Below are positions 1,910 through 44,858 of a stretch of DNA of 64,000 bases, one piece after another. Source of the stretch: Comamonadaceae bacterium 2PF (GTDB lineage: Bacteria; Pseudomonadota; Gammaproteobacteria; Burkholderiales; Burkholderiaceae_C). The stretch lies in contig SCMV01000005.1 in assembly GCA_005502875.1 (NCBI GenBank), positions 1 to 64,000 of the forward strand. The letters run 5' to 3'. Below the pieces are notes generated by a model. It was not told the origin of the DNA and made no database searches. It saw only the letters and a list, made by a program, of their open reading frames with translations. The number at the start of each line of letters is the position of its first letter. Position 1 is the stretch's first letter. A program made the position numbers and the translations under genes.

Positions 1910-1940
1910 TTGACTCTGTAGCCGCTACAGGGATTCAAAT
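1910..1940 (+). promoter_or_regulatory. MerR/CadR-type promoter of czcICBA
   Basis: A -35 box TTGACT (1910-1915), a 19-bp spacer carrying the dyad CTGTAGC/GCTACAG, and a -10 box TCAAAT (1935-1940). A 19-bp spacer with a dyad in it is the hallmark of MerR-family activated promoters. It nearly copies the sites at 31565, 42715 and 44828. No merR gene is adjacent, so control in trans (CadR at 31071 is the candidate) is inferred. Confidence 0.75.
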
Positions 1941-2063
1941 GGATTCAAAGAGATTGGATCTTCTATCGACGGACATGCCAGGCAACTTCCTTCACGTGTA
2001 TTTGTCAGGCGCAACTCATTTCTGATCCACAAGGCATTTTTTTCAACCTATACTTGCCGCGCC

Positions 2064-2441
2064 ATGCGTCGATTGCTTTGCTTGTTCCTGCTGATTTGGT
2101 TTCCGCTCCAGATGTCCTGGGCTGCGGTGGCCAGCTATTGTCAGCATGAAAGCAACCCTGCCGCGCAGCGCCATTTCGGGCACCACGAGCACAACCATCT
2201 TGATCCGCAACATGGGGAGCGCCCTGGCGATAAAGCCGCAAAGGACAAGAGCGGTAGCGACAAGAAGGCCAGTGCCGACAACGACTGCACTGTCTGCCAC
2301 ATGAGCGCTGCCTCGCCGGTCAGTGAGACGCACACCCCCCAGGTGGCGTCTAGCAGGGAATGGTTTGGCCACTCGATCGAGGGCTACGCCTCCAACATTC
2401 CAGCGGGGCCCGAGCGTCCCGACATACGTCTCGCCGTTTGA
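2064..2441 (+). CDS. czcI: CzcI-type periplasmic protein (copy 1)
   Basis: A 125-residue exported protein that opens the czc operon, as czcI does in Cupriavidus metallidurans. It has a signal peptide (MRRLLCLFLL...WAAVA), then YCQHE and a His-rich patch (HFGHHEHNH), a Lys/Asp-rich linker, and a CTVCHM metal-binding-like motif. CzcI is known as a small periplasmic accessory or regulatory protein of Czc; its exact mechanism is unsettled. Two paralogues lie at 33891 and 41571(-). About 110 bp separate it from czcC. Confidence 0.8.
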   Translation: MRRLLCLFLLIWFPLQMSWAAVASYCQHESNPAAQRHFGHHEHNHLDPQHGERPGDKAAKDKSGSDKKASADNDCTVCHMSAASPVSETHTPQVASSREWFGHSIEGYASNIPAGPERPDIRLAV

Positions 2442-2551
2442 TTCGGCGAGACGGCTGCTGCGCAAGCTTTTTTCCTGTCTTCAGATAGCGAGGCCACGGC
2501 CTCTCTCGCCGGATTCCTTCTTGTTGTTGTTCCCACAACCCGGAGAATTCG

Positions 2552-3850
2552 ATGTACAGGCACATGGTGCCGATGACAACGTTCGCGTTGGTCACGGCCA
2601 CACTTTTTTCTTCCACCACCTTTGCTCAAGTTAGCCCGTCCGATTCGGATGGGCAGGCCGTGCACAAGGCGGTGCCCGTGGCACAGCCCCTGACGCTGAG
2701 CGAAGCCATCAGGCTGGCGCTTCAGTTCAGCCCGCAAATCGTGGCGAATCAGCAGGAACTGGCGGCCAGCGAAGGGGCCGTCATTCAAGCGGGTGCGCGT
2801 CCCAACCCTGAAGTCCAGGCACTGCTGGAAGACACGCGGCGAGACAGCCGAACGACCACGGTGCAGTTGAGCCAGCCCATCGAGTTGGGCGGTAAACGTT
2901 CAGCGCGGATCTCGGTCGCCGAGGCCGCGCGGGCTCAAACCGCCGTGGACATCGAAGGGCGTCGCGCGCAGATCAGAGCGGATGTGGCCGATGCATTCTT
3001 TGCCGCAGCCATCGCTCAGGAACGGGTGAAGTTGGCGCAGGCCTCCGTCGACTTGTCCATGCGTGGCACGGATGCGGTCTCCAAGCGGGTTCAGGCCGGC
3101 AAGGTCTCTGCGGTGGACGAGACGCGGGCAAAGGTCGCTCACGCTGGTGTCCGGCTGGAGTTGCTTCAAGCGCAGAGCGAACTTCGATCCGCTCGCCAAG
3201 GGCTGGCAGCCCTGCTGGGGCCAGCATCTGCCGTTCGTGCTCAGACGCTGGTCTGGCAATCGGGTGTCCAACCAGCCGCTCGCAATCTGGAGGCTTCTCA
3301 GTTGTCAGATGTGCCGGTGCTGCGGCAGGCACGCCTGGAGGTCGACAAGCGGCAAGCCATGGTCGAGCTTGAGGAAGCCCGCCGCGTTCCGGACGTCACC
3401 GTGACATTAGGTGCCAAACGCGATCAGCAGGTCGGGCGCAACCAGGCGGTGATCGGCCTGGCCATTCCGATTCCTGTGCTAGATACCAATCGCGGCAACC
3501 TGCTGCAGGCCTTGCGCCTGCATGACAAGGCCGAAGCGGACTTTCAAGCAACGCGGATCCGCGTCGAGACCGAGTGGGTGCAATTGACGGAGCGTCAGCG
3601 CTTCGCTCAGGCAGAGGTGGACGTTCTGCGTAGCGAGGTACTGCCGGGCGCCGAGAGCGCTTGGCAGGCCGCCACGACCGGCTTCGAGTTGGGAAAGTTC
3701 AGCTTCCTCGACGCCCTGGATGCTCAACGGACCTTGCTCCAGGCCCGCGCCCAGTACCTGCGGGCGCTCAATGAGCTGTACCGCACCAACGCCAACATCG
3801 ATCGCCTGCTGGGGACCAGCGGCGAAGAACAGACGACGTCCAAGCCATGA
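2552..3850 (+). CDS. czcC: CzcC outer-membrane efflux protein
   Basis: A 432-residue TolC-family outer-membrane factor of the CzcABC Zn/Co/Cd efflux complex. It has a signal peptide (MTTFALVTATLFSSTTFAQ) and two OEP repeats: LTLSEAIRLAL near the N-terminus and a second half around residues 230-425 with long coiled-coil helices. A GGAG ribosome site precedes ATG 2552. The stop overlaps the czcB start by 4 nt (ATGA), implying coupled translation. It provides the outer-membrane exit duct for CzcA. Confidence 0.92.
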   Translation: MYRHMVPMTTFALVTATLFSSTTFAQVSPSDSDGQAVHKAVPVAQPLTLSEAIRLALQFSPQIVANQQELAASEGAVIQAGARPNPEVQALLEDTRRDSRTTTVQLSQPIELGGKRSARISVAEAARAQTAVDIEGRRAQIRADVADAFFAAAIAQERVKLAQASVDLSMRGTDAVSKRVQAGKVSAVDETRAKVAHAGVRLELLQAQSELRSARQGLAALLGPASAVRAQTLVWQSGVQPAARNLEASQLSDVPVLRQARLEVDKRQAMVELEEARRVPDVTVTLGAKRDQQVGRNQAVIGLAIPIPVLDTNRGNLLQALRLHDKAEADFQATRIRVETEWVQLTERQRFAQAEVDVLRSEVLPGAESAWQAATTGFELGKFSFLDALDAQRTLLQARAQYLRALNELYRTNANIDRLLGTSGEEQTTSKP

Positions 3851-5259
3851 GAAAGCATTGCATGACACGCTCCCAATCACAACGCCAAGCTGGGCGCATC
3901 AGCCAAAAGCAACTCATCGCCATCATCGCCATCGTTTTGGCGGGGTTGGGCGCCAGCGCATTTGTGCTGACACGGTCTCCCAGCGCGCCTGCCGGCGAAG
4001 CGGCCGAGGAGAGCCATGGCCACGGTCACGGCGAGGCCAAGGGGCACGACGACGCCGAGCACCACGGCGAGAAGAAGTCCGAGTCCGGCCACGACGAGGC
4101 GAAGGGACACGATGACAAGGAACACCATGAGAAGGCCGAGGAGCATGGGGCGCATGACAAGCATGAAGGCGAAACCGCTCCTGAGAAGGGCGCTGCCGCC
4201 GCCAACGCTGGCAAGCACGAGGAAGGCGAGGAAGAGCCTGTCTCTCTGAATGCCCAGCAGATCGCAGCAGCGGGCGTTGAAGTCCAAGCGGCACAACCTG
4301 GCAAGATCCTTTCGACCGTGCAACTGTCCGGCGAGATCAAGTTCAACGAGGATCGCACGGCACACGTTGTGCCCCGTGTCGGTGGCGTCGTCGAATCGGT
4401 GTCGGCCAACCTCGGGCAGCAGGTCAAGAAGGGCCAGGTCCTCGCGGTCATTTCCAGCGTGGTGCTGTCCGAACAGCGCAGCGAGTTGCAGGCGGCCCAG
4501 AAGCGCCTGACCTTGGCACAAACCACCTACGACCGAGAGAAAAAGCTCTTCGAAGACAAGATCTCGCCGCAGATGGATCTTCTGCAGGCGACCCAGGCCC
4601 TGCGCGAAGCCGAGATTGCGGTCAACAACGCCAACCAGAAGCTCAAGGCATTGGGTGCTTCGCCTTCGGCTGGGGCATTGAATCGCTACGAGCTGCGCGC
4701 ACCGTTTGATGCGGTCGTGGTCGAGAAGCACATCGCTCTGGGCGAGTCGGTCAAAGAAGACGCCAACGTGTTCACGCTGTCCGACTTGTCCACCGTTTGG
4801 GCAACGATCAACGTGCCTGCCAAGGACCTGAACCTGGTGAAGGTGGGCGAGAAGGTCACCGTGCGATCCAGTTCCTTCGACGCCACGGCAAAGGGCACCG
4901 TGACCTACGTCGGATCGCTGATCGGCGAGCAGACGCGCACGGCTACCGCCCGGGTGGTGTTGACCAATCCCGACCTGTCGTGGCGTCCTGGCCTGTTCGT
5001 CAATGTCGCCGTGACTTCCGGCGAGACGGAAGCACCCGTGACCGTGACGGCTGGCGCGGTGCAGACCATGGAAGGCCGCCAAGTCGTATTCGTCGAAGTC
5101 CCGGGCGGCTTCCAGGCCAAGCCTGTGGAGGTCGGTCACACCGATGGCAAGCGCACGGAAGTTGTCAAGGGCTTGAGCGCCGGTACCCGCTATGCGGCGA
5201 CGAACAGCTTCGTCATCAAAGCTGAAATCGGCAAGGCTTCGGCCGAGCACGAGCATTGA
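3847..5259 (+). CDS. czcB: CzcB membrane-fusion protein with His-rich arm
   Basis: A 470-residue periplasmic adaptor linking CzcA to CzcC. An N-terminal membrane anchor (about residues 22-40) is followed by a long His/Glu/Asp/Lys-rich segment (about 55-125) with repeated EGHDD- and HGE-like motifs. Then come the barrel-sandwich and alpha-hairpin domains (VVPRVGGVVESV and LQAAQKRL near 170-260). The acidic, His-rich arm is typical of CzcB and is thought to bind Zn2+ and hand it to CzcA. The gene ends with HEH. It overlaps czcC by 4 nt and lies 18 bp before czcA. Confidence 0.92.
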   Translation: MRKHCMTRSQSQRQAGRISQKQLIAIIAIVLAGLGASAFVLTRSPSAPAGEAAEESHGHGHGEAKGHDDAEHHGEKKSESGHDEAKGHDDKEHHEKAEEHGAHDKHEGETAPEKGAAAANAGKHEEGEEEPVSLNAQQIAAAGVEVQAAQPGKILSTVQLSGEIKFNEDRTAHVVPRVGGVVESVSANLGQQVKKGQVLAVISSVVLSEQRSELQAAQKRLTLAQTTYDREKKLFEDKISPQMDLLQATQALREAEIAVNNANQKLKALGASPSAGALNRYELRAPFDAVVVEKHIALGESVKEDANVFTLSDLSTVWATINVPAKDLNLVKVGEKVTVRSSSFDATAKGTVTYVGSLIGEQTRTATARVVLTNPDLSWRPGLFVNVAVTSGETEAPVTVTAGAVQTMEGRQVVFVEVPGGFQAKPVEVGHTDGKRTEVVKGLSAGTRYAATNSFVIKAEIGKASAEHEH

Positions 5260-9095
<3,836 letters not shown>

Positions 9096-11840: not shown

Positions 11841-11871
11841 TCTGGCAGCGGATGCATCAGGACCTGCGCTG

Positions 11872-12304: not shown

Positions 12305-12373
12305 CTTCAGTCCTTGAAGGTTATGGAGGTGAAAGCCTATGCAGATGCAGGCGACAGAAGGCCAACTCAAAGA

Positions 12374-12388
12374 TGACAAATTCGTCAT
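12374..12388. promoter_or_regulatory. Cop-type box in divergent promoter
   Basis: TGACAAATTCGTCAT lies inside an 8-bp inverted repeat AAGATGAC/GTCATCTT, between the His-rich gene (start 12304) and the response regulator (start 12424). The position suits autoregulation by the adjacent CzcRS-type pair. Confidence 0.6.
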
Positions 12389-12423
12389 CTTCCTTGTGTA
12401 ACAGCCATTTAACAATCAAACGC

Positions 12424-13110
12424 ATGAAAATTCTGGTGATCGAAGACAGCGTCAAGATGGCCGAGTACCTTCGCAAGGGTCTCTGCGAGGAAGGCTATGT
12501 GGTCGACGTGGCCAACAGCGGCATTGACGGCTTGCACATGGCGATCGAGATCGACTATGACCTTCTCGTCCTGGATGGCATGCTCCCCGGCATCGACGGC
12601 CTGGCAGTGCTCGCTGCTCTGCGGCAAAGCAAACAGACGCCGGTGCTCATGTTGACGGCCCGCGGACAGGTCGAAGACCGTGTCAAAGGCCTTCAAGGCG
12701 GAGCGGACGATTACCTCGTCAAACCGTTCGCGTTTTCGGAATTGGTTGCGCGCATCCAGGTTCTGCTCAGACGGTCGGGCGGGCAGCGAAATGCTGGCGA
12801 GCCGACGGTTTTGAAGGTGGCCGATCTGGATGCGGATCTGCTTCGTCGAAAAGCCACGCGATCTGGGCAGCGGCTCGACCTCACGGCTAAGGAGTTCAAC
12901 CTGCTGAGCCTGCTGCTGCGACGCCAGGGCGAAGTGCTGTCGCGTACCGAATTGGCCGAGCAGGTCTGGGACATGCACTTCGACAGCGAGACCAATGTCG
13001 TGGAGGTGGCCATTCGTCGCCTGCGCTCCAAGCTGGATCAGCCTTTTGAGAGACCGTTGTTGCACACGGTGCGCGGGATGGGCTACGTGCTGGAGGTTCG
13101 CGAGCCGTGA
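12424..13110 (+). CDS. czcR: CzcR-type response regulator
   Basis: A 228-residue OmpR-family regulator. The receiver is intact (VIEDS acidic pocket, D51 in VLDGMLPG, T in MLTARG, K in LVKPF) and is followed by a winged helix ([19 protein letters not shown]). It is paired with a histidine kinase whose GTG start overlaps its stop (GTGA). The pair is expected to sense periplasmic metal and induce the neighbouring efflux genes. czcR is chosen over copR because of czcE and czcCBA nearby; sequence alone does not settle that. Confidence 0.8.
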
Positions 13111-19755: not shown

Positions 19756-19756
19756 G

Positions 19757-31070: not shown

Positions 31071-31523
31071 TCAACGGCGTTTGCCGTGGCTTGCTGAGAC
31101 ATGTTGTCGAGCTGTCTGCTGCTCAAGAGTCTCCCCCTGGCCAAGTCCACTCAAGATGCCGCAATGCGCGACATCTTTTGCCTGAGCACATTGCCCCCGC
31201 AGTGCCACCAGTTGTTTTTTCAAGGCGGTCAGCTCTCGAATCCGTTGGGCCACGTGTTCGATGTGCTCATCCAGCACGTTGTTCACGGCCTCACAACTCT
31301 CGTTGGGGGCTGCCTGGAGCGCCAGCAGAGCCCGAATTTCATCCAGGGCCATGTCCAGTGATCGACAGTGGCGAATAAAGGCTAGACGTTCGACGTGGGG
31401 CCCTTCATAGATCCGGTAGTTGCTGATGGTGCGTGAAGGCTTTGGAAGCAGGCCCTCGCGCTCGTAGAAGCGAATCGTTTCCACAGGGGTGCCAGACTGG
31501 GCTGACAAGTCACCTATTTTCAT
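31071..31523 (-). CDS. cadR: CadR/PbrR-type MerR regulator
   Basis: A 150-residue regulator: HTH (MKIGDLSAQSGTPVETIRFYEREGLLPKPSR), NYRIY wing, dimer helix, and the Cd/Pb/Zn-sensing cysteines in NESCEAVNNVLDEH (start of dimer helix) and CAQAKDVAHCGIL (C-terminal loop). This three-Cys layout is that of CadR and PbrR. It is divergent from cadA with a 78-bp gap that holds the promoter at 31565. It is the only CadR-like gene in the window, while four matching operators exist. Confidence 0.88.
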   Translation of the reverse strand: MKIGDLSAQSGTPVETIRFYEREGLLPKPSRTISNYRIYEGPHVERLAFIRHCRSLDMALDEIRALLALQAAPNESCEAVNNVLDEHIEHVAQRIRELTALKKQLVALRGQCAQAKDVAHCGILSGLGQGETLEQQTARQHVSASHGKRR

Positions 31524-31564
31524 GGCGGGTTCCTGTTGGCAAGCAGATACGGCCATATTACCGC

Positions 31565-31595
31565 TTGACTCTGTACCTACTTCAGGGTTTCAAAT
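31565..31595 (+). promoter_or_regulatory. CadR-type promoter of cadA
   Basis: -35 TTGACT, 19-bp spacer (CTGTACC...TTCAGGGTT) and -10 TCAAAT. It lies between the divergent cadR and cadA starts, the classical place for a MerR-family operator. Confidence 0.85.
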
Positions 31596-31601: not shown

Positions 31602-33845
31602 ATGACCACGCCCCGAACCACATCGCCCGAAAACACCAGCCCCTCAGCTTGCGAGAATCACAGTTGCGGATGCGCAGGGGCATCCACTGCGGCGGCGATC
31701 TCGCCCAAACCCCCGGACGCTGGGTGGACCATGTTCCACATCGCCTCTATGGACTGTTCCTCAGAGGAAGCGGAAATCCGCCGCGCTGTGGATGCCATCC
31801 CCGGCATCAGGGCACTGAGGTTTCAACTGAGCGCTCGGACGCTGGACATCCAGGCCACGGAGCAGGCGTTGCGCCAGGCACTGCAAGCCATTCGCAAAGC
31901 GGGGTTTGATCCCCAACCTCTGCTTGCAACGCAGACCAAAACACCAAGCGAACACAATGCCCATGATGAGCACAGTGGAAGTGAGGGTGGGTCTAGGCTA
32001 ATCTGGGCTTTGGGCCTGGCCATCGCAGCGGAGTGCATCGGCTTTTTCGCGCCTGATACTGCTTTGTTCAAGGCGATCGGTCTTGCGGTCGCAGCCGGTG
32101 CCATCGCGCTGGCTGGCCTGGGCACCTACCGCAAAGGCTTGTGGGCTTTGCGCCAAGGCAAGCTCAACATCAATGCCTTGATGACGGTGGCGGTTACCGG
32201 TGCCTTCGTCATTGGTCAATGGCCTGAGGCGGCCATGGTGATGGCCCTCTACGCCATCGCTGAGTTGATCGAGGCTCGGTCGGTCGATCGGGCACGCAAC
32301 GCCATCAAAGGCTTGCTGGATCTGGCCCCGCAGCAGGCCATGGTGCAACAGGCAGATGGACAGTGGACAGTGGTGCCTGTCGATCAGGTCGAACTGGGCA
32401 GCCTTGTTCGCATTCGCCCAGGCGAGCGTGTGCCATTGGATGGCACCGTGGTTCAGGGCAACAGCGCGATCAACCAGGCACCCGTCACTGGAGAAAGCAT
32501 CCCGGTCGACAAGGAAGCTGGGGACCCGGTGTTTGCCGGAACCATCAACGAAACTGGCGAGATCGTCTTCAAGGTGACGGCGTCCGCATCGAACACGACC
32601 TTGGCACGCATCATCCATGCGGTCGAAGAAGCGCAAGGCACGCGCGCGCCCACTCAGCGATTTGTTGATCGCTTTGCAGCTTTGTACACCCCCGCCGTGT
32701 TTGTGATTGCCGTGGCGGTTGCGGTGTTGACACCCTGGCTGATGGGCTGGAGTTGGATGCAGTCGATCTACAAGGCGCTGGTGCTGCTGGTCATCGCATG
32801 CCCCTGCGCCTTGGTGATTTCAACGCCTGTGACCGTGGTCAGCGCACTGGCAGCCGCAGCGCGCCGAGGGATCTTGATCAAGGGAGGCACCTATCTGGAG
32901 GATGCGCGCAATCTGCGTGTGATCGCGCTGGACAAAACGGGCACCATCACAGAAGGAAAGCCGAAGTTGGTGGTGTGGGAGGCCCTTCAGGGTAATCGAG
33001 ATGCCATCGCTCAGTTGGCATCTGGTTTGGCCTCTCGATCAGATCACCCAGTCTCGCAAGCCATAGCCCAAGGCTTGACGGCAGAGCCCCTGGCGTTTGA
33101 AAACTTTGAGGCTCTGCCTGGACGAGGTGTACGGGGGCGACGTGAAGCCACGACTTATGTGCTGGGCAACCACCGCTTGATCGAAGAGCGTGGGCAGTGC
33201 AGCCCCGAACTGGAGGCCAAACTTCTGGCCCAAGAGCATGCGGGACGCAGCGTGACACTGCTGGCCAGTGATCAAGGTGTATTGGCGTTGTTCGCAGTGG
33301 CCGACACCATCAAGGAGTCGTCTCGCCAAGCGGTCGCTGAACTCAAAGCACTTGGCGTGCGTCCGGTCATGCTCACGGGCGACAACGACGCAACCGCTCA
33401 AACAATTGCCAAGCAGGCAGGTGTTGATGACGCCCGAGGCAACCTTCTGCCCGAAGACAAGTTGCAAGCCATCGAGCGATTGCGGGCGGAGCATGGGCTG
33501 AGCGCCATGACTGGCGATGGCATCAACGACGCGCCTGCGTTGGCGAAGGCGGACATCGGCATTGCGATGGGCGGCGCGGGCACCGACACGGCCATGGAGG
33601 CCGCCGACGTGGTCATCATGAACGATGACCTGCGCCGCATCCCTGAGTTGATTCGCTTGTCTCGCCTGACACATGCTGTGCTGTGGCAAAACATTTCCCT
33701 GGCGCTGGGCATCAAGGCGGTGTTTCTTGTGCTGGCGGTGTTTGGACACGCCTCGATGTGGATGGCTGTGTTTGCCGACATGGGGGCCAGTTTGCTGGTC
33801 GTGGCCAATGGCTTGCGCCTGTTGCGGGCTCGCACGAGCCCATGA
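31602..33845 (+). CDS. cadA: CadA/ZntA-type Cd/Zn/Pb P-type ATPase
   Basis: A 747-residue P1B-type ATPase that exports divalent soft metals from the cytoplasm. A Cys-containing N-terminus (SACENHSCGCA) is followed by a degenerate HMA domain (SMDCSSEE), the TGES loop, the membrane motif ACPCALVISTP (Cys-Pro-Cys, near residue 400), the phosphorylation site DKTGT, and [23 protein letters not shown] with the N-terminal CSSEE points to Zn/Cd/Pb rather than Cu. Operon: cadA, czcI copy 2, then a small lipoprotein. Confidence 0.94.
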   Translation: MTTPRTTSPENTSPSACENHSCGCAGASTAAAISPKPPDAGWTMFHIASMDCSSEEAEIRRAVDAIPGIRALRFQLSARTLDIQATEQALRQALQAIRKAGFDPQPLLATQTKTPSEHNAHDEHSGSEGGSRLIWALGLAIAAECIGFFAPDTALFKAIGLAVAAGAIALAGLGTYRKGLWALRQGKLNINALMTVAVTGAFVIGQWPEAAMVMALYAIAELIEARSVDRARNAIKGLLDLAPQQAMVQQADGQWTVVPVDQVELGSLVRIRPGERVPLDGTVVQGNSAINQAPVTGESIPVDKEAGDPVFAGTINETGEIVFKVTASASNTTLARIIHAVEEAQGTRAPTQRFVDRFAALYTPAVFVIAVAVAVLTPWLMGWSWMQSIYKALVLLVIACPCALVISTPVTVVSALAAAARRGILIKGGTYLEDARNLRVIALDKTGTITEGKPKLVVWEALQGNRDAIAQLASGLASRSDHPVSQAIAQGLTAEPLAFENFEALPGRGVRGRREATTYVLGNHRLIEERGQCSPELEAKLLAQEHAGRSVTLLASDQGVLALFAVADTIKESSRQAVAELKALGVRPVMLTGDNDATAQTIAKQAGVDDARGNLLPEDKLQAIERLRAEHGLSAMTGDGINDAPALAKADIGIAMGGAGTDTAMEAADVVIMNDDLRRIPELIRLSRLTHAVLWQNISLALGIKAVFLVLAVFGHASMWMAVFADMGASLLVVANGLRLLRARTSP

Positions 33846-33890
33846 GAAAACACTTCGTAGTCACGGACATTGGTCGATATACTGCGGACC

Positions 33891-34244
33891 ATGCGCCGGT
33901 TGATTGCCATTCTTTTGATGATCGTGCTGCCACTCCAATTGAGTTGGGCTGTGGCGGCCACGTACTGTCAAGATGAGCAAGATCCCGGTGCCCAGCATTT
34001 TGGTCACCACGTGCATTCACACCAAGACCGCGCGGATACAGGCAAGCACCCGACCAAAATCACCCAAAAGGCTGAGAACGATTGTGGCTGCTCTGGTCAC
34101 CTGTGCAGCGCCCATCTGCTTCCCGTGGGTCTTGTGTTTGGTCAAGCTCAACGACTGAGCAGCAGTTCGTCCTTGGAAACCCACCTTCATCCAACATCCG
34201 ATCCGCCTCGGATCGAGCGCCCCAACTGGATCGACTCCCTCTGA
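33891..34244 (+). CDS. CzcI-type periplasmic protein (copy 2)
   Basis: A 117-residue exported protein. Signal peptide MRRLIAILLMIVLPLQLSWAVAA, then YCQDEQDPGAQHFGHHVHSHQD, which matches the czcI at 2064 in order and spacing, then CGCSGHLCSAHLL. The ending RIERPNWIDSL parallels the copy at 41571 (PDRPNWSNLA). ATG 33891 is chosen by that match. It lies 46 bp after cadA, an unusual partner for a CzcI protein. Confidence 0.78.
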   Translation: MRRLIAILLMIVLPLQLSWAVAATYCQDEQDPGAQHFGHHVHSHQDRADTGKHPTKITQKAENDCGCSGHLCSAHLLPVGLVFGQAQRLSSSSSLETHLHPTSDPPRIERPNWIDSL

Positions 34245-34774: not shown

Positions 34775-35176
34775 TTACTTGATCGCGAACCGGACGTTGA
34801 TCGGTTTTTTGCCTGCCAGCGTCACCAGCGCCACCACCTTGGTGCCGCTCTTGATCGCAAAGTTGCCCATGGCTTGCAGGTGAGAGTCACCTGCCGGTGA
34901 CAAGGTCACCGATGTCTTCTCAGCGCCATTGAGCAAGGTCAACTTGGCTGTGGCGCCTTTGGCGCTGGCCGGTTTGCCGTGATCCCTCACGTGCAAGGCA
35001 ATTTGATCTGGCTTGGCCACCAACTCGAAGTCCATGTCCTTGGCCTCGGTGACGATGCCACCGTGGAGGGACTGATGCTCATGGCCATGCTCATGGCCGT
35101 GGTTGTGCTCGTCGCCAGCTTGTGCGCCAAAGGCCAAGGCCAGCAGGGAAGAAGCAATGATGTGGTGAATGCGCAT
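34775..35176 (-). CDS. His-rich small periplasmic protein (copy 2)
   Basis: A 133-residue exported protein: signal peptide, His patch ([19 protein letters not shown]), then [22 protein letters not shown] and the end LVTLAGKKPINVRFAIK. It matches the protein at 11915 over its whole length. It is the last gene of the seven-gene RND operon. It is likely a periplasmic metal binder that feeds or spares the pump (inference). Confidence 0.78.
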   Translation of the reverse strand: MRIHHIIASSLLALAFGAQAGDEHNHGHEHGHEHQSLHGGIVTEAKDMDFELVAKPDQIALHVRDHGKPASAKGATAKLTLLNGAEKTSVTLSPAGDSHLQAMGNFAIKSGTKVVALVTLAGKKPINVRFAIK

Positions 35177-35206
35177 GGGAATGTCCTTTCAGTTGAGGTG
35201 AATGAA

Positions 35207-38200
35207 TCAGTAAACTTCGGCGCTCTTGTCACCGAGCAGGCGCTCGGCATCGCGTCGGCCAAACAGCCAGAACATGGCCGGGGTCAGGAAGGTGTCCAGC
35301 AAGGTTGAGCTGATCAAGCCTGAGAAGATCACCACCGCCACGGGGTGCAGGATCTCGGTGCCAGGCCGCTCGGCCTCGAACAACAGGGGTGCCAGCGCGA
35401 AGGCGGTCACCAGAGCGGTCATCAACACCGGGCTGAGCCGCTCCATCGAGCCGCGCAAGATCATCGCGTGGTCAAAACGTTCGCCTTCGAGTCGCATCAG
35501 GTTCAGGTAGTGGCTGACCTTGAGGATGCCGTTGCGCACCGAGATGCCCGCCAAGGTGATGAAGCCGATCAAGGCTGCCACCGACAGGGGCTGTCCTGCC
35601 AGCCACAAGCCCAGCACCGCACCCACCAGGGCCAGCGGGATGTTGGCCATGATCAGCGCAGCCAGGTTGGCTGATTTGTAGCGGGTGTAGAGCACCACGA
35701 ACATCAGCACCAGCGACACCATGGAGAGCAGGCCGACCAGTCGGCTGGCTTCTTCCTGTGCCTGAAACTGCCCGCCCAGGGTCACGAAGTAGCCTTCAGG
35801 CAAAGGCGTGGTGGCCACCACCTTGCGGATGTCGGCCACCACGTCTGACAAGGCTCGCCCTTGCGCATTGGCAGACAAGACGATGCGGCGTTTGCCGTCG
35901 TCGCGGCTGATCTGGTTGGGGCCATCGCTGTCTTCGATCGTGGCGATCTTGGACAGGGGGATCCGCCCGGTTGGTGTCTCCAGCATGATCTGACCCAGCC
36001 CCTGCAAGGTGCGGGCGCGCTCTGGCAGGCGAACCACCAGGGCAAAGCGACGGCTGCCTTCCACCACCTGGGTGACCTTTTCCCCCTCCACCAAGCTTTG
36101 GAGCACCGCCAGGATCTGAGGCGTTGGCACGCCGTACTGCGCCGCTGCGTCGTAATCCACCCGCACCTTGATTTGAGGTGCGAGCACCTGCTTTTCAATC
36201 TCCAGGTCTGCCAGGCCGGGCACTTGCGCCAACTTGCCGCGTAAAGCGTCGGCCTGCCCCCTCAAGGTGTCAAGGTCTTCACCGAACAGCTTGATGGCGA
36301 TTTGCGAGCGCACCCCTGAGAGCATGTGGTCGATGCGGTGCGAAATCGGCTGCCCGATGGCAATGGCCGCGGGCAGCATCGACAGGCGCGAACGGATGTC
36401 GGCTTTGACCTCGTCCATGCTGCGCGTGAGCTCGGACGCTGGCAGCAGGCCGACATCCAATTCACTGACGTGCACGCCTTCTGCGTGTTCATCCAGCTCC
36501 GCCCGGCCACTGCGACGACCCACGTGAGTGACTTCAGGCACCTTTCGCACCAGTACCTCGGCCTGGCTGGCCAGGGCAGATGATTCGGCCAAGGTCACGC
36601 CGGGGTTCAAGCGCAAGCCGATCAGCAGCGTTCCCTCGTTGAATGGCGGCAGAAAGGTGGTGGCAAAGAAGGGCACCGCCACGGCCGACAAGACTGCCGC
36701 CAGTCCACCGGCCAGCAATGCCGACCTGGGTGCGCTCAAAACGGCCTGCAAAGCCTTGCGGTAACGCGCTTTCAGCCAGGCCAGCACGCGGGTGTCATCG
36801 TGGTCCAGGCTCTTCATGCGTGGCAACAGGTAGGAGGCCAGAACCGGCGTCACAGTGACCGAGACCAGCAGCGAAGCCATGGTCGAGACGATGAACGCAA
36901 TGCCCAGGGGCACGAACAAGCGCCCCTCGATGCCGGGCAGCGCAAACAAGGGCAGGAACACCAGGACGATGATGGCCGTTGCGTACAGGATGCCCGAGCG
37001 AACCTCCATCGAGGCCAGCTTGACCACCTCCAGCATGGGCATGCGCTCCGCCTCGGGCTTTTGGCGCTCAAGCTTGAGGCGGCGCAACACGTTCTCGACG
37101 TCCACCACTGCGTCGTCAACCAGGCCGCCGATGGCGATGGCCAGGCCGCCCAGCGTCATCGTGTTGATCGACAGACCGAAGTACCGGAACACCAGTGCCG
37201 TGACAAAGATGGACACCGGGATGGCGGTCAGCGCAATGATGGTAGGGCGCAGCGTGCCCAGAAAAACGAACAAAATGACCGCCACGAAAACGGACGCACC
37301 GATCAGCTTGCCTTGCAGCGTGGTCACCGAGGCTTCGATGAAACTGGCCTGGCGGAAAGTGACGCGAGGCGCCTCCATGCCGACAGGCAGGGAGGTCTTC
37401 ATCTCGCCCAGCGCCGCCTCAATGGTGCGGGTCAAACCAATGGTGTCTGCGGTCGGCTGCTTCTGAATCCCGAGGATGACGGCTGGCTTGCCCTCAAAGC
37501 CTGCATCACCACGCTTGAGCGCAGGCGCAAAGCTCACATCGGCCACCTGGCGCAACCGGATGGCCTGTCCATTGCGGGCCGTCAGAGCCAGGTTCTTCAG
37601 GTCATCCAGGCGCGAGGTGCGGCCCAAATGACGGATCAGGTATTCGCGGCCATTGAGCTCCATGAACCCGCCCGAACTGTTTGAAGAGAACCCCCGCAGC
37701 GCACCCTCCAGTTGGTCGTGCGTGATGTCCAGCTCCGCCATGCGAACAGTGTTGGGTTGCACCTGGAACTGGCGCACCTCACCGCCAATTGGGATGACCT
37801 GGGCGACTCCTGGGATGGCCATCAACCGAGGCCTGAGCACCCAATCTGCATATTCGCGCACCGCCATGGGTGAAGTCTTTGCGAGATCGATGGGAATGGC
37901 GACCTGCATGATCTCGCCCATGATGGAGCTGATGGGCCCCATCCTGGGCGTGATGCCTTCGGGCAAGCCTTCTTCCATGGAGGTCAAGCGCTCTGACACC
38001 ATCTGCCGAGCTCGGAAGATCTCGGTGCTCCAGTCAAAGGTGACGTAGATGAAGGACAGGCCTGCGCTGGAGGTCGAGCGCACGCTCTCCACCCCCGGCA
38101 GGCCATTCATCGTGGTCTCCAGCGGGAAGGTGATCAGTTGCTCCACCTCTTCGGCGGCCATGCCGCCCGCTTCCGTCATGATGGTGACGGTTGGTTTGTT

Positions 38201-38326
38201 GAGATCAGGAAACACATCCACCGGCGTGCGTGTGAGCGTGAAGGCCCCGTAGGCCATCAGCACCGCCGCAGCGATGAGAACGAGCAGCCGGTTGGCCAGG
38301 CTGCTTTCGAGTAGCCACTTGAACAT
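35207..38326 (-). CDS. Heavy-metal RND efflux pump, non-CzcA subgroup
   Basis: A full-length 1039-residue HME-RND pump. It has RND repeats, TM1 near residues 12-32, and TM4 motif LAIAIGGLVDDAVVDVEN. D404/D405 and E411 are present, but the position matching CzcA D402 is Ala398. The subgroup therefore differs from Zn/Co/Cd CzcA (DFG-x3-DGA) and resembles VDDA-type pumps with poorly known substrates. It is encoded after its own adaptor, a His-rich protein and an outer-membrane factor. Confidence 0.9.
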   Translation of the reverse strand: MFKWLLESSLANRLLVLIAAAVLMAYGAFTLTRTPVDVFPDLNKPTVTIMTEAGGMAAEEVEQLITFPLETTMNGLPGVESVRSTSSAGLSFIYVTFDWSTEIFRARQMVSERLTSMEEGLPEGITPRMGPISSIMGEIMQVAIPIDLAKTSPMAVREYADWVLRPRLMAIPGVAQVIPIGGEVRQFQVQPNTVRMAELDITHDQLEGALRGFSSNSSGGFMELNGREYLIRHLGRTSRLDDLKNLALTARNGQAIRLRQVADVSFAPALKRGDAGFEGKPAVILGIQKQPTADTIGLTRTIEAALGEMKTSLPVGMEAPRVTFRQASFIEASVTTLQGKLIGASVFVAVILFVFLGTLRPTIIALTAIPVSIFVTALVFRYFGLSINTMTLGGLAIAIGGLVDDAVVDVENVLRRLKLERQKPEAERMPMLEVVKLASMEVRSGILYATAIIVLVFLPLFALPGIEGRLFVPLGIAFIVSTMASLLVSVTVTPVLASYLLPRMKSLDHDDTRVLAWLKARYRKALQAVLSAPRSALLAGGLAAVLSAVAVPFFATTFLPPFNEGTLLIGLRLNPGVTLAESSALASQAEVLVRKVPEVTHVGRRSGRAELDEHAEGVHVSELDVGLLPASELTRSMDEVKADIRSRLSMLPAAIAIGQPISHRIDHMLSGVRSQIAIKLFGEDLDTLRGQADALRGKLAQVPGLADLEIEKQVLAPQIKVRVDYDAAAQYGVPTPQILAVLQSLVEGEKVTQVVEGSRRFALVVRLPERARTLQGLGQIMLETPTGRIPLSKIATIEDSDGPNQISRDDGKRRIVLSANAQGRALSDVVADIRKVVATTPLPEGYFVTLGGQFQAQEEASRLVGLLSMVSLVLMFVVLYTRYKSANLAALIMANIPLALVGAVLGLWLAGQPLSVAALIGFITLAGISVRNGILKVSHYLNLMRLEGERFDHAMILRGSMERLSPVLMTALVTAFALAPLLFEAERPGTEILHPVAVVIFSGLISSTLLDTFLTPAMFWLFGRRDAERLLGDKSAEVY

Positions 38327-38340
38327 GATGCGTGGCCCTT

Positions 38341-39474
38341 TCAGCGAATTTGGTTGAGCAAGCTGGCGCCATGCGTGACCACGCGCTCACCCGCCTTCAA
38401 GCCGGAGGTGACGGCCACCGAGGCGCCATCCAGCGGCTCGAAGGTGATCACGCGTGGCGTGAAGCGCTCGGGCGATTGCTTGACCCAGACGATGTTCTGA
38501 TTCGATGGGTTTTTGAGCACCGATGCCGACGGGACGGCTTGGCCTTTGACCTTCAGGTCAGATTGCACATAGACCTTCAGGGGCTGCCCGACAGCCAGTT
38601 GAGACAGCGCCTGTCCTGTTGCCGAAAAGACCAATGGCAGTGCTTGATCACGCAGGCTTTTGGCTCCGCCAATGAACTTGAGCGGCACCCTTTGTCCACC
38701 AATGTTCACTGTTGCGCTGGATACGTTCTGGGCCTGAGCCGTGTCATAGGCCAGCGCCTCGATGCGCAGGCGCTGTGGGTCAACGACCTCGAAGACCAGT
38801 TCGCGGGCGTCCACCACCTGGCCAGCCACGGCCTGTGTCGAAGCAATCACGCCGGATACCGGTGCCACGAGCGTGTCGCGCCCCCCCAGACCACCCGAGA
38901 TGGCCGAGAGGCGCTCGCTCAGGCTGGCCAGCTCACTTTGCGCCGCTTCAATCTCTTTGGCAGGCACCGTGTCAGAGAGTTCCTGAAGGCGTGCCAGTCG
39001 TTTGGCTGCCAATGCCCGGGCCGCTTTCAGTTCGGCCTGTTGCGCGACCTGGTTGCTGCGCTCGATGGCCCCCGCTGTGGGCACCACATAGGCCAGGACC
39101 TCGCCTTGTTTGACCTGCTGCCCCAGGCTGGGCAAGCCCTTGGGCCCGGCTTGCAAACGGCCCGCCAAAGAAGCTTGTACTTTGCCGCCCGCATTGGGGT
39201 CCATCGACACCTTGCCTGAGAGCTCGTATGCGCGGGGCAAGTCGCCGTCAGTGACAGCCAGGGTGCGCAGTTGCCACTGCCTTTGGGCAGGCTTGGGCAA
39301 GAACACACTGCCATCGGGTTGGCGCTTGGGGCCATTGCCCGTTGCAGCAGGCGGGGCATCGCCATGGTCATGCCCCTCGCCTGCGCGAGCAAGTGAGGGG
39401 CTGAGTGCGGCACCCAGAACCAGGCATGAGGCCAGACACGAAGCCAGCGCCATAGAAATCTTTGTCGTGCTCAT
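38341..39474 (-). CDS. RND membrane-fusion protein, CzcB-like
   Basis: A 377-residue periplasmic adaptor: signal peptide, short His patch (GEGHDHGDAPP), barrel-sandwich/hairpin region (ELSGKVSMDPNAGG...LKAARALAAKRLARLQEL), beta-barrel and membrane-proximal domain (GLKAGERVVTHGASLL). The GGGAGG site 6 nt before ATG 39474 fixes the start. The start overlaps the stop of the upstream gene (ATGA). It lacks the long His arm of the czcB at 3847. Confidence 0.88.
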   Translation of the reverse strand: MSTTKISMALASCLASCLVLGAALSPSLARAGEGHDHGDAPPAATGNGPKRQPDGSVFLPKPAQRQWQLRTLAVTDGDLPRAYELSGKVSMDPNAGGKVQASLAGRLQAGPKGLPSLGQQVKQGEVLAYVVPTAGAIERSNQVAQQAELKAARALAAKRLARLQELSDTVPAKEIEAAQSELASLSERLSAISGGLGGRDTLVAPVSGVIASTQAVAGQVVDARELVFEVVDPQRLRIEALAYDTAQAQNVSSATVNIGGQRVPLKFIGGAKSLRDQALPLVFSATGQALSQLAVGQPLKVYVQSDLKVKGQAVPSASVLKNPSNQNIVWVKQSPERFTPRVITFEPLDGASVAVTSGLKAGERVVTHGASLLNQIR

Positions 39475-40034
39475 TCGGCACCTCCCATGCGTGTGCGCTT
39501 GTTGCGCTGAATGAAGAACAGCCCACCGGCGACCACCACCAGCCCGGGCAGCGCCCACTTGAGCCACCGGCTCATGGGCCATGTGCCACCGCCAGAGGCA
39601 TCGGCAGCATCGGTGTGGGCGGCTTCGTGCACATCCAGCTCGGCCGCCAGCAGATCGGACGCCTGACCAGCCACCACGGTGGCGCTCACAGGGTATTCAC
39701 CCTCTTCAGGTTCAGCGGCCAGGGTGGCTTCGAACGTGCCTTCTTCGGTTTGTTTGACGGGCAATGCCTTGCCTGCGAATTCGATCTCCAGGCTGGCGCC
39801 TTTGACAGGGCTGTTGTCTGCCGCTTGATCCAGGTAGAGCGTCAGCTGGCGGCCGTCGAGCACGCCGACCAGCTCGAACTGGTCCGACGTTGCTTCGAAG
39901 CGGGCCAAAGTCGGCTCGGCTGCGGCGCTTGGCGCCTCGCCATGGTCATGGCCTTCACCGGCCATGACCAAAGCCGTCACGGTGCTCAGGCCAAGGGCTG
40001 CGGCCCAGGCACGGATGGTTTGTATGTGTGTCAT
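39471..40034 (-). CDS. His-patch periplasmic protein with C-terminal membrane anchor
   Basis: A 187-residue protein: signal peptide, GEGHDHGEAPS patch, a beta domain (FELVGVLDGRQLTLYLDQAADNSPVKGASLEIEFAGKALPV), an acidic linker, and a C-terminal TM (WALPGLVVVAGGLFFIQRNKR). The beta domain looks related to the His-rich proteins at 11915 and 34775 but is anchored in the inner membrane. It is sandwiched between the outer-membrane factor and adaptor genes, so it is probably part of the pump's metal relay. Confidence 0.7.
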   Translation of the reverse strand: MTHIQTIRAWAAALGLSTVTALVMAGEGHDHGEAPSAAAEPTLARFEATSDQFELVGVLDGRQLTLYLDQAADNSPVKGASLEIEFAGKALPVKQTEEGTFEATLAAEPEEGEYPVSATVVAGQASDLLAAELDVHEAAHTDAADASGGGTWPMSRWLKWALPGLVVVAGGLFFIQRNKRTRMGGAE

Positions 40035-40065
40035 GTGGGGGTTTACCTTTGCGATGGCGATGTGT

Positions 40066-41403
40066 TCATGGCTTGGGCAGTTCGCCCAAGGCTTGCCACC
40101 AGGCCGACCAGGCGGCGGACACGTCAATGCGTGCTCGGCTGAGTGCTTTTTGCGCCTGAACGGCCTCCTGTTCAATGCGCAGGCGGGTGGGCAGATCGGT
40201 TTCTCCCAAGCGGAATGACTTGTCGAAGAAGTTTTTGCTCTCCTGCGCAAGTTGCGCCTGGCGATGTGTTGCCTGCCATTGCGTATGGGCGCTTCGCAGT
40301 CGTGCCAGCGCCGAAGCGGCTTGCGCTTGCAGGCGTGCCCGCATTTGTAAGGTCATGGCTTGCGCTTCCTGGGCTGCGGCCAAGGCTTCGGCCTGCCTGG
40401 CATCGGCTCGTGCGCCTGTGCCAAACGGAACCCTCAGACCAACTGTGATGCTCTGCTGATACGGATCGCCTGTTTGCCCTCGGCTGCGTGTTGTCAACAC
40501 GGTGAGCTCTGGACTGGCGCGCCTCGATGAGGCGGCCAAATCCGCTTGCGCACTGGCCATGGACTGTTGGGCCATGGCTTCCGCGAACAACGGGTGTTCA
40601 TCGACTGATGGGGCATCCGATGCGAGGGCATCCGCTGAGGGCAGTGGTGTCGAAACGTCGCCCTCGGATGTCGCTTCGAGGTTGTCAGGAGACAAATCCA
40701 GCAGTCCGGTCAGGCCCCTGAGTGCATGCAGCGATGCCTCGTAGGCGCCTTGCGCTTCAGCAACGGCCGATTCGGCCTGTGCCACGGCTCCCTCTGCCTG
40801 ATGCTGATCCGCGCGGGCCAGATCACCTGCTTTGACGCGGCGGGCCACGTCAAGGGCAATTTGCTGGGCATTGGCAACCCTGGTTTGGGCCAAGGCCAGC
40901 TCGGTTTGCGTGCGCTGCGTTTGCCACCAGCCTTCACGAACAAGGCCAGCGAGTTGCAAGCGTTGGGCCTTCATACTGCCTTGTAGCGCCAAGATTTGGG
41001 CATGGCTGAGTGCAGTCGCGCGTTGACTCTGGCCGGGCAGCCACAAGGGCAGTGCCACACCAACTTCTACTTCGCGGCTGCCTGCACCCGAGCCAGGGCG
41101 GTCGGTCTTGCCTTGCAGCAGCATGGCAGGCGAATCGGCCGTCCACGCGCTGCTGGCGGCCCTCAATGACTCCGCTGCACGCAGGCGTTCGGTGTAGGAC
41201 TGCGCCTCTGGCTGACGCGACCAGGCTGCTTCCAACAAGGTTAAAAGCGTCAGTTTGGAGGGCGCAGCGGTGAGGTGTTGAGCGTCGCTCTGTGAGATGA
41301 CAGGTGCCTGAGCCCCCGTTGTTTGAGCTTGAAGGGGTGACAGGCAGGCTAGCGAGGCCATCATGGCCAGCGCTGAGCTTAGTGTTTGATGACGGAAATG
41401 CAT
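40066..41403 (-). CDS. Outer-membrane efflux protein, CzcC-like
   Basis: A 445-residue TolC-family protein: signal peptide (MHFRHQTLSSALAMMASLACLSPLQAQ), first OEP repeat LLEAAWSRQPEAQSYTERL, coiled-coil helices rich in Ala/Gln, and a second repeat ending SFRLGETDLPTRLRIEQEAVQAQ. It supplies the exit duct for the RND pump of this operon. A GGAG-like site lies before ATG 41403. Confidence 0.88.
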   Translation of the reverse strand: MHFRHQTLSSALAMMASLACLSPLQAQTTGAQAPVISQSDAQHLTAAPSKLTLLTLLEAAWSRQPEAQSYTERLRAAESLRAASSAWTADSPAMLLQGKTDRPGSGAGSREVEVGVALPLWLPGQSQRATALSHAQILALQGSMKAQRLQLAGLVREGWWQTQRTQTELALAQTRVANAQQIALDVARRVKAGDLARADQHQAEGAVAQAESAVAEAQGAYEASLHALRGLTGLLDLSPDNLEATSEGDVSTPLPSADALASDAPSVDEHPLFAEAMAQQSMASAQADLAASSRRASPELTVLTTRSRGQTGDPYQQSITVGLRVPFGTGARADARQAEALAAAQEAQAMTLQMRARLQAQAASALARLRSAHTQWQATHRQAQLAQESKNFFDKSFRLGETDLPTRLRIEQEAVQAQKALSRARIDVSAAWSAWWQALGELPKP

Positions 41404-41570
41404 CCGATTCTTCTCCGGGAAAAATCCACAGGTGGAAGGAATCGGCGAGGGTCAGGGTCGCGGCGTTGAAGGCGAAAAGGGCCGCACAAATGGCATGGCA
41501 CCGATGCGTCAATCACACGCGATAAGACAGGCTGAATGTGGGGCGCGAACCCCGGGCAGCACCTCGCCGC

Positions 41571-41927
41571 TCAGGCGAGGTTTGACCAGTTGGGGCGGTC
41601 GGGCAAGGCCACGGGCGCAGCGGGCACCCTGGCGTCTTCAGTGCGCATCAGGCCTCGATTGGGCGTGCCAATCTGGTTGCGGCTCGTGAATTGGGGCAAC
41701 GCTGCGCAGTGACCATGGCAAGCATGGCAGTCGGCGTGGTCGGCGTTGGATGTTTGGCCATCGGGTGACGGGAAGTCACCACCACTCAGTTCGCTGTGCT
41801 CATGCTGGTGGTGCCCCAGATGCGTTGTCTGGGGCGAATGTTCGTGCTGGCAATAGGGTGCCGCTGCCGCCCAGAGGGACTGCAAAGGCAACCAACACAG
41901 CAAGAAAATGGCGATCCAGCGACGCAT
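41571..41927 (-). CDS. CzcI-type periplasmic protein (copy 3)
   Basis: A 118-residue exported protein: MRRWIAIFLLCWLPLQSLWAAAA signal, YCQHEHSPQTTHLGHHQHEHS, then DHADCHACHGHCAALP and the end PDRPNWSNLA. The same plan as the copies at 2064 and 33891. It lies between the transglutaminase-like gene and the outer-membrane factor in the seven-gene operon. Confidence 0.78.
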   Translation of the reverse strand: MRRWIAIFLLCWLPLQSLWAAAAPYCQHEHSPQTTHLGHHQHEHSELSGGDFPSPDGQTSNADHADCHACHGHCAALPQFTSRNQIGTPNRGLMRTEDARVPAAPVALPDRPNWSNLA

Positions 41928-41968
41928 GGTGAAAAGTGTAGCAGGGTACGGACGGCGCTCGTGGTGAT

Positions 41969-42676
41969 TCACTTGCCGGACCTGATGGATTGCACGGTTT
42001 TGTTCATCCAGTGGCGAACCACGTGCTGAAACAAGTACCGCTTGAAGCCCGAGAGGTTGGTGCCGTGTCTGGTGTAAAAGTCGTCGGGCGTGTCGAAAAG
42101 CCCAAAATCATGGTTGATGCCATTGCGCTGGATGTAGGTGCTTTCACCTTGCCAAGCGATGGGCGGGTTTTGCAGGTCGTCCACCGCAGCACCGTATCCG
42201 CAAAACGGCCCGTTGTGCTGAGAGAAGCGCTTTTGCAGGGCACTCAGGTAGGTTCGGTCCAGAATGAACCCCTCAAGGTTGATCCAGCGCCCATCCATGT
42301 CAACTTCCACCCAACTGTGGATGATGTTCCCGGGGGCGAGCAAATAGGCCAAACCGGTGATGGCACCTTTTTGCAAGGCCTTGTCGATGGTGAAGCCATG
42401 GAATCGGCAGGGAACGTCCATGGCTCTGAGCAGTGCCATCAACAAGGTGCCCTTGGTATTGCACTGGCCGATGCCATCTGCCAGCACACGGGAAGCGGGC
42501 AGATCGTCTTGGGTGTTGTAGCCAAACGCGATCTCGTCACGCACGAAGGCATACGCCGCCCCAACGCGATCATGTAGTCCCAATGAAGTCCAGTTTCTTT
42601 GCTGAATCAGTTGGCGAATGGCTGGGGCGTGGTGGTCAAGGATCGGGGTGGCTTGAGTCAGGTGGTGATGGCGCAT
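41969..42676 (-). CDS. Transglutaminase-like cysteine protein
   Basis: A 235-residue cytosolic protein (no signal peptide) of the transglutaminase-like superfamily. Nucleophile Cys72 in ADGIGQCNTKGTLLMALLRA, His120 in IIHSWVEVDMDGRWINLEG; the third acid would be Glu135, where Asp is usual. Such domains hydrolyse or transfer amide bonds. It is first in the seven-gene RND operon, directly behind a CadR-type promoter, which is an odd place for this family. The substrate is unknown. Confidence 0.78.
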   Translation of the reverse strand: MRHHHLTQATPILDHHAPAIRQLIQQRNWTSLGLHDRVGAAYAFVRDEIAFGYNTQDDLPASRVLADGIGQCNTKGTLLMALLRAMDVPCRFHGFTIDKALQKGAITGLAYLLAPGNIIHSWVEVDMDGRWINLEGFILDRTYLSALQKRFSQHNGPFCGYGAAVDDLQNPPIAWQGESTYIQRNGINHDFGLFDTPDDFYTRHGTNLSGFKRYLFQHVVRHWMNKTVQSIRSGK

Positions 42677-42714: not shown

Positions 42715-42745
42715 ATTTGAAAGCCTGTAGTGACTCCAGAGTCAA
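42715..42745 (-). promoter_or_regulatory. CadR-type promoter of the seven-gene RND operon
   Basis: Minus strand: -35 TTGACT (42745-42740), 19-bp spacer with CTGGAG...CTACAGG, -10 TCAAAT (42720-42715). It is a close match to the cadA promoter. It lies 39 bp upstream of the transglutaminase start. No merR gene is adjacent. Confidence 0.78.
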
Positions 42746-43977: not shown

Positions 43978-44014
43978 CGCGCCAGGACGACACTGACCGT
44001 TGGCATACCTCCCG

Positions 44015-44518
44015 TCAACGCGGCCCAGACTCCGTTTTCCCTCCCCGCAACTCACAGACGAGCATCAAGACAGCACCGAGGGTGATGCCGATATCTGCGA
44101 CGTTGAAGGCTGGCCAGTAGAACGACTGCCACCTGACATCAATCCAGTCCACCACCGCCCCGCGAGCGAGCCGATCGAGCAGGTTCCCTAAAGCACCGCC
44201 TAGGAGAAGCCCGAAGGCCAGCCGCTGAGGGCGATCAGTTTGAGGCCGCCGAATCAGTATGACCAAAACAATCGAGGCAGCCACAGCGACTGCGCTGAAG
44301 AAGAAGCGCTGCCATCCACCTGCGTCGTGCAAGAAACTGAAAGCGGCACCTTCGTTCCGCCAGTGGACGATATTAAGCACCGGGAGCCATGGCTCGCTGG
44401 AGCCATACGGGAGTGCAGCGACCACCGCAGCTTTGCTTACGATGTCCATCAGGAATACGGCTGCGGCGGCAAGGAAGGCACGGGCAACGCTCGGATCAAA
44501 TCTTTGGCGTATCGTCAC
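44015..44518 (-). CDS. lspA: Signal peptidase II (lipoprotein)
   Basis: A 167-residue integral membrane aspartyl peptidase that cleaves lipoprotein signals. Four TMs; NEGAAFSFL, the catalytic Asp region GGALGNLLDRLARGAVVDWID and FNVADIGI are present. GTG start. Island-borne LspA proteins follow cadA/pbrA in lead-resistance operons (PbrB/C type); here it follows the cadA remnant and could still be read from the operator at 44828. At least two lipoproteins in this island would be substrates. Confidence 0.9.
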   Translation of the reverse strand: MTIRQRFDPSVARAFLAAAAVFLMDIVSKAAVVAALPYGSSEPWLPVLNIVHWRNEGAAFSFLHDAGGWQRFFFSAVAVAASIVLVILIRRPQTDRPQRLAFGLLLGGALGNLLDRLARGAVVDWIDVRWQSFYWPAFNVADIGITLGAVLMLVCELRGGKTESGPR

Positions 44519-44812
44519 TGGACCTTATCCCTCTCGCTGTAGGCCTGAGCAGGCGCAATCCGTTGAACACCACGACCAGGCTCGCATCCATGTCAGCCAG
44601 GATTGCCAGCCACAAGCTGGCGTGTCCCGTGAAGGTCAAGACCATGAACACCGCCTTGGTGCCGATCGCAAAGGCGATGTTGGCCCTCAGCACATTGCCC
44701 ACCCGATGGGAGAGAGCGATGAACTCTGGCAACTTGCGCAGGTCGTCTTGCATGAGGGCCACGTCAGCAGTCTCAATGGCGGTGTCGGTGCCTGCTGCGT
44801 GATGGTCATGGC
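44496..44812 (-). pseudogene. Headless cadA (C-terminal fragment)
   Basis: The minus frame carries only the end of a P-type ATPase: AGTDTAIETADVALMQDDLRKL...IGTKAVFMVL...ASLWLAILADMDASLVVV-NGLRLLR, matching the last 100 or so residues of the CadA at 31602. The ATG behind AAGGAG at about 44813 reads out of frame with this fragment. The N-terminal domains, CPC and DKTGT are missing. The deletion seems to have joined the gene's start to its tail. Confidence 0.8.
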
Positions 44813-44827
44813 GTGCTCCTTGACAAC

Positions 44828-44858
44828 ATTTGAAACCCTGTAGCCGGTTCAGAGTCAA
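44828..44858 (-). promoter_or_regulatory. CadR-type promoter of the cadA/lspA remnant
   Basis: Minus strand: -35 TTGACT (44858-44853), 19-bp spacer with CTGAACC...CTACAGGG-like dyad, -10 TCAAAT (44833-44828). It is intact although its own cadA is destroyed and no divergent cadR remains. Confidence 0.78.

Follow-up and report, generated by a model that had tools for sequence, protein, structure and literature searches.

Five CadR-type promoters and two cadR genes probably form a dispersed CadR regulon in an island of Comamonadaceae bacterium 2PF

Introduction

CadR control of cadA, the action of CadR on czcRS3 and the pbr/cadAC operons are already known. MerR-type promoters are recognised by a dyad and a spacer of 19 bp (PMC1526738). 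In Pseudomonas, a cytoplasmic sensor reaches an RND pump only indirectly, via CadA and CzcS or via czcRS3, as far as the cited sections go (PMC7242495, PMC8469834), and the CadR of C. metallidurans has been proposed to act as a repressor only (PMC11580412). The main text of Permina et al. 2006 (PMC1526738) mentions czc and RND nowhere, and in the open-literature listings that we searched, no paper described an RND operon directly controlled by CadR.

We analysed a window of 64,000 nucleotides (C55:1-64000) from a genome of 4.18 Mb in 95 contigs, and compared it with a sister genome of the same genus, G241. The window carries four CadR-type promoters (boxes), each of which heads a gene unit:

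1910..1940, + strand: CadR-type promoter 1, 123 nt ahead of the czcI ATG (pattern and matrix)
31565..31595, + strand: CadR-type promoter 2, between cadR and cadA (pattern)
42715..42745, - strand: CadR-type promoter 3, 38 nt ahead of a transglutaminase-like gene (pattern and matrix)
44828..44858, - strand: CadR-type promoter 4, 31/31 identical in the Aquabacterium loci L052 and L078 (pattern)

Site 2 resembles the CadR-cadA divergon known from P. aeruginosa and P. putida: the regulator belongs to the same family, the palindrome is the same, and cadR and cadA likewise diverge. P. aeruginosa has two strong genomic CadR sites by matrix, at cadA and zrd (PMC12301328), whereas the island studied here has five, two of which head RND operons. 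In P. putida KT2440, CadR links Cad to Czc (PMC8469834), and we propose likewise for the island; however, KT2440 CadR works via czcRS3, which in turn acts on czcCBA (PMC8469834), whereas the island boxes point straight into czcI and a second pump. The pbrRABCD operon of C. metallidurans plasmid pMOL30, and cadAC, carry a P-type ATPase and an LspA-like peptidase behind a CadR/PbrR box. Site 4 resembles them, but its ATPase gene is deleted and it has no neighbouring cadR. The czcICBA gene order of pMOL30 czcNICBADRSE is the same as in the island; the czcI region of this plasmid (72500-77500) contained no CadR-type box, its top matrix score being -24.0.

Results

Boxes of one pattern in the island

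A whole-window pattern search returned exact matches to TTGACTCTG-N6-CT(A/T)CAGG-N2-TTCAAAT at 1910+, 31565+, 42715- and 44828-. Every box was 31 bp long with 19 bp between TTGACT and TCAAAT, and the window held no further match with up to 3 mismatches allowed. The pattern had 0 matches in 100 dinucleotide shuffles of the window; these results confirmed the four near-identical 31-bp sites with 19-bp spacers that the original prediction had described. A genome-wide search with the 31-bp pattern, a check suggested along with this prediction, recovered the four sites and also a fifth box outside the window, at C31:2572, with one mismatch. Upon relaxing the pattern, the whole genome gave one extra weak site with 2 mismatches, compared with 3 for the reversed control.

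The training set of a scoring matrix consisted of 59 foreign sites, each preceded by a cadR-like gene. With this matrix, the four window boxes scored 49.0-51.6, compared with a training median of 51.3; the positive control, the pbrA promoter of C. metallidurans, scored 36.4. In 20 windows generated by a first-order Markov model and scored on one strand each, the maximum was -1.1. A chance origin of the boxes was rejected on the basis of the shuffles, the Markov windows and the reversed-pattern control. The flanks of the four window boxes showed no comparable similarity beyond the box; because the flanks differ outside it, origin from a duplicated segment was also rejected. Compared with the 23-bp CadR consensus published for P. 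aeruginosa, the boxes agreed at 16-18 positions and PAO1 cadA at 19. All five boxes contain a palindrome inside the 19-bp spacer between -35 and -10, with 6-8 of 11 arm positions of the dyad self-complementary. Box 1 occurs with identical letters in G241 and in Aquabacterium CECT 9606. The contig of the latter, a cultured isolate, has an identical box 5 as well (L129), whereas boxes 2-4 were not seen on it.

Position 111 of contig C31 and position 114 of the window correspond to adjoining bases of one G241 contig. Since C31 and the left end of the window are contiguous in G241, the start of a second cadR gene on C31 (cadR2) is expected approximately 6.3 kb to the left of window position 114. 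In G241, the five boxes span 47,265 bp. The gene order on C31 is box, CzcI-like gene, small lipoprotein-like gene, cadA2, cadR2. Identity to G241 was 99.7-99.99% across 30675-64000 of the window versus 96.5-97.7% across 114-31674, which suggests that the right and left parts may differ in age or have undergone recombination. Conjugation genes (TraD of SXT type, TraI_2 helicase) lie at 17228-21523, between sites 1 and 2; therefore, the units seem to be located in or around an integrative element.

Genes headed by the boxes

The genes that had been predicted to follow the sites, namely czcICBA, cadA, a seven-gene RND operon and a cadA/lspA remnant, were found as stated:

2064..8463, + strand: czcICBA unit with czcI (2064-2441), czcC (2552-3850), czcB (3847-5259) and czcA (5278-8463), by NCBIfam
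31602..33845, + strand: cadA, heavy-metal P-type ATPase (TIGR01525, 601 bits, above cut-off)
33891..34244, + strand: CzcI-like gene directly 3' of cadA (NF045614, 81.7 bits for the frame 33870-34244; cut-off 100)
34775..42676, - strand: seven-gene RND operon (NCBIfam/profile matches), made up of the next seven entries
41969-42676, - strand: transglutaminase-like gene, next to box 3
41571-41927, - strand: CzcI-like gene (NF045614, 81.1 bits for the frame 41571-41972; cut-off 100)
40066-41403, - strand: TolC-like gene
39471-40034, - strand: gene for a small periplasmic-type protein
38341-39474, - strand: adaptor gene
35207-38326, - strand: RND permease of the second pump (788.6 bits; CusA/CzcA cut-off 701.45)
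34775-35176, - strand: gene for a 133-aa protein
44015..44827, - strand: cadA relic and intact lspA (44015-44518), at site 4

In the first unit, czcI scored 105.3 bits with NF045614, over the 100-bit cut-off, and czcA 1757.2 bits, above the CusA/CzcA cut-off of 701.45; czcC and czcB were assigned by their best families, czcB lying under the TIGR00999 cut-off. Only 6 nt separate the end of box 2 from the cadA ATG, and a leaderless cadA is possible at this site. At site 4, the start region of cadA is joined out of frame to its last ~100 codons, so that the ATPase gene is not intact. The same deletion is present in Aquabacterium L052 and L078, where lspA is intact; box and leader are 49/49 identical in both, and lspA 469/504. 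An open frame at 44952-46688 is a truncated pump gene: its match to a CzcA-type permease is confined to the second half (profile 469-1039 of 1051). The CzcI-like gene of C31 scored 84.7 bits with NF045614 (cut-off 100). The genome contains six CzcI-like genes (E <= 1e-5), and four of these are in box-headed units, counting the one behind cadA.

The transglutaminase-like protein (41969-42676) has conserved GQCNTK and IIHSW motifs and no obvious signal peptide; it is probably cytosolic. A sequence search of solved structures returned no relevant match for it.

Two CadR regulators

31071..31556, - strand: cadR (CadR1; TIGR02047, 179 bits; cut-off 151.45)

CadR1 probably starts 11 codons further in, at an internal MKIGDL. 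CadR2, encoded at C31:6456-6836, scored 183.5 bits with TIGR02047, above the cut-off of 151.45, and these two were the only proteins above the CadR-PbrR cut-off genome-wide. They are identical at 85 of 127 residues, and at 41 of the first 55. Each aligns with P. putida CadR structures/sequence over its three metal-binding cysteines, which we take to be C77, C112 and C119. The statement that one cadR was visible thus held for the window and not for the genome, the second gene lying in the same island. That one MerR protein coordinates all sites was not supported as stated, as CadR2 and its own box belong to this island; with five boxes and two CadRs, the claim is unproven. The original prediction had itself named control of the other sites by another CadR in the genome as a refutation. 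This is half borne out: a second CadR exists, and CadR2 would be a candidate controller of these sites. The simplest reading is that both CadRs could act on all five boxes.

Boxes exceed cadR genes by three in this genome and in G241 (5 boxes, 2 cadR). The comparison covered 12 multi-box genomes with a pattern drawn from our own island, hence boxes elsewhere are undercounted, and in the 11 besides G241 the excess of boxes over cadR was at most two. The numbers of boxes and cadR genes were 4/4 in G172, 3/3 in G238, 3/4 in G220, 2/5 in G183, 2/1 in G129 and 2/2 in each of G052, G096, G284, G156 and G194; G280 had 2/0, with one cadR match just below the cut-off.

Boxes in other genomes and plasmids

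The foreign sample comprised 29 loci (L016-L044) and 117 further loci among the matches listed, giving 150 sites, of which 127 were counted after removal of 15 island copies and 8 duplicates. Among the matches listed, 97 of the 127 had a cadR-like gene (tblastn >60 bits to either CadR, so that some may be other MerR proteins) within 1.2 kb upstream, 86 divergent and 11 in the same direction. No such gene was found within 1.2 kb at 26 of these 127 listed sites, and 4 were too near a contig end. Judged by sequence, the boxes are CadR/PbrR-type promoters because 97/127 of the matching foreign sites listed have a cadR-like gene no more than 1.2 kb away.

Among the same 127 listed sites, the region up to 2.5 kb downstream held an ATPase alone in 54, a cation-diffusion-type gene alone in 37 (three examples match Pfam Cation_efflux; the rest were assigned by motif) and none of the scored gene kinds in 15. 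CzcI or RND genes stood downstream in 17 (13 of them with a cadR-like gene) and a transglutaminase-like gene in 10 (8 with a cadR-like gene). L137 has a single cadR flanked by two boxes, one for cadA and the other at the head of the same kind of RND operon. L125 has cadR, box and czcI-C-B-A; L120 has cadR, box and transglutaminase-CzcI-TolC-periplasmic-adaptor-RND; L054 and L152 have cadR, box and cadA-czcI-czcC; and L171, on a plasmid of Acidovorax carolinensis, has cadR, box and cadA-transglutaminase-...-RND. L050 carries box-cadA-czcI-czcC-czcB with no cadR in the 1.2 kb upstream. The other most informative genome loci were L062, L105, L118 and L104. The proposal of ATPase and RND pumps under joint CadR control drew support from these recurrent arrangements (L137, L125, L120, L171, L054, L152), and it appears well supported from gene order that joint control of the cytoplasmic ATPase and RND pumps recurs elsewhere.

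We also searched order genomes and plasmid records for the transglutaminase-like gene irrespective of boxes. It was present in 5 of 399 genomes of the order, the window's own included. The G532 locus has box and cadR; G641 has no box or cadR; in G674, cadA is just upstream and the locus ends short of the cadA promoter; and the contig of G469 starts too close to judge the upstream region. The gene was present in 198 plasmid records, five of which were examined: an annotated cadR adjoins in 4/5, and a box within 3 mismatches is present in 3/5. The gene recurs behind CadR boxes beside cadA, cation-diffusion or RND genes, and the loci concerned are unrelated.

Other controllers of czcICBA and the second pump

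A czcI-like gene was present in 115 of 299 family genomes in a search made irrespective of boxes. Thirty czcI loci were examined, two of which were island copies; among the 28 others, 25 had no box within the 1.5 kb flanks examined and three had a box near czcI, directly ahead of it in only one. Nine plasmid records carried an RND permease at least 80% identical to that of the second pump. In 7 of the 8 examined, no box stood directly ahead of the pump; only in L171 does a box head the pump's own gene run. Several plasmid relatives have a two-component system at the pump in place of the box. Plasmids of Shinella, Thauera, Comamonas and Aquincola have a CadR-like box ahead of cadA instead (weak in Thauera and Aquincola), and the pump regions examined from Polaromonas, Pseudomonas juntendi and Diaphorobacter had no box within 3 mismatches.

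A -10-like hexamer, TANA(C/A)T, lies 6-10 nt ahead of the ATG in 30 of 34 non-redundant czcI-family genes versus 1 of 306 background slots, and a TGTAGC-N-GCTA dyad overlaps it in 8/34. Its position suggests that czcI-family transcripts may be leaderless. Leaderless czcI2 transcription has been reported in C. metallidurans, and the position of the czcI hexamer fits this (PMC10127602). Because the hexamer precedes the ATG in 30 of the 34 genes, czcI need not depend on the box. The divergent response regulator, the czcRS-like pair and the -10-like element are possible other controllers of czcICBA:

2043-2063, 33870-33890, 41928-41948 and, on C31, before 2689: czcI-family -10-like elements
753..1493, - strand: response-regulator gene divergent from czcI (TIGR01387, 247.7 bits, below the cut-off of 279.2)
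12373..14462, + strand: czcRS-like two-component pair (TIGR01387 and TIGR01386, above cut-off)

Discussion

As far as its sequence tells, the island is a real and recurrent variant of CadR control, partly as originally proposed. We consider it likely that its five CadR-type promoters, four of them within the window and one on C31, make up a dispersed CadR regulon served by two cadR genes. A CadR dimer on the palindrome within the over-long 19-bp spacer would keep each promoter silent. Once CadR bound Cd(II), Zn(II) or Pb(II) in the cytoplasm, it would underwind the DNA, so that RNA polymerase could use -35 and -10. This would switch on lspA, the two CadA ATPases, which move metal from cytoplasm to periplasm, and the RND pumps that carry it out of the cell, namely czcICBA and the second pump of czc-like type. 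Binding, induction and metal range are all predicted here, and either CadR would have to act in trans on boxes 1, 3 and 4. A cytoplasmic sensor thus probably starts the pumps of both cell compartments together.

In the original prediction, CadR1 of the window could coordinate all sites alone. It has its own box there, and in L137 a single cadR lies between ATPase and RND boxes; however, CadR2 has an equal family score and its own box in the same island, and we regard sole control by CadR1 as quite unlikely. Solitary boxes could also be relics: as the island rearranged, operons would have lost or left behind the cadR that belonged to them, and would by now be silent or leaky. The cadA headed by site 4 is indeed deleted, and relatives of the units have a neighbouring cadR. 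The boxes are nevertheless intact, conservation at site 4 is complete in box and leader (49/49) whereas lspA has changed (469/504) in L052 and L078, and solitary boxes occur elsewhere too (26/127 among the matches listed); a relic origin is therefore improbable in our judgment.

Alternatively, two-component regulators and czcI's own promoter may mainly drive czcICBA and the second pump, with boxes 1 and 3 playing a minor role. The response regulator divergent from czcI, the czcRS-like pair, the -10-like element ahead of czcI and the two-component genes that several plasmid relatives carry at the pump are consistent with this, and CzcRS drives czcCBA in P. aeruginosa (PMC7242495). However, box 3 has no adjoining two-component gene, boxes 1 and 3 match the matrix at or near the median training site, and CzcRS of C. 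metallidurans does not control czcICBA (PMC10127602). We hold this explanation to be possible, though rather doubtful.

Returning to the dispersed CadR regulon, we see an even chance that the Cd/Zn sensor of the cytoplasm acts without intermediates on both RND pumps and on the CadA ATPases, bypassing the P. aeruginosa relay from CadA through the periplasm to CzcRS, and that a transglutaminase-fold enzyme is also under cadmium control. In C. metallidurans, czcICBA is reportedly not under CzcRS (PMC10127602), and the island lineage gives a candidate answer as to what induces such operons, tempered by the pMOL30 czcI region, which itself is without a CadR-type box. If true, a CadR box placed directly on RND operons would shorten the circuit and couple cytoplasmic with envelope efflux.
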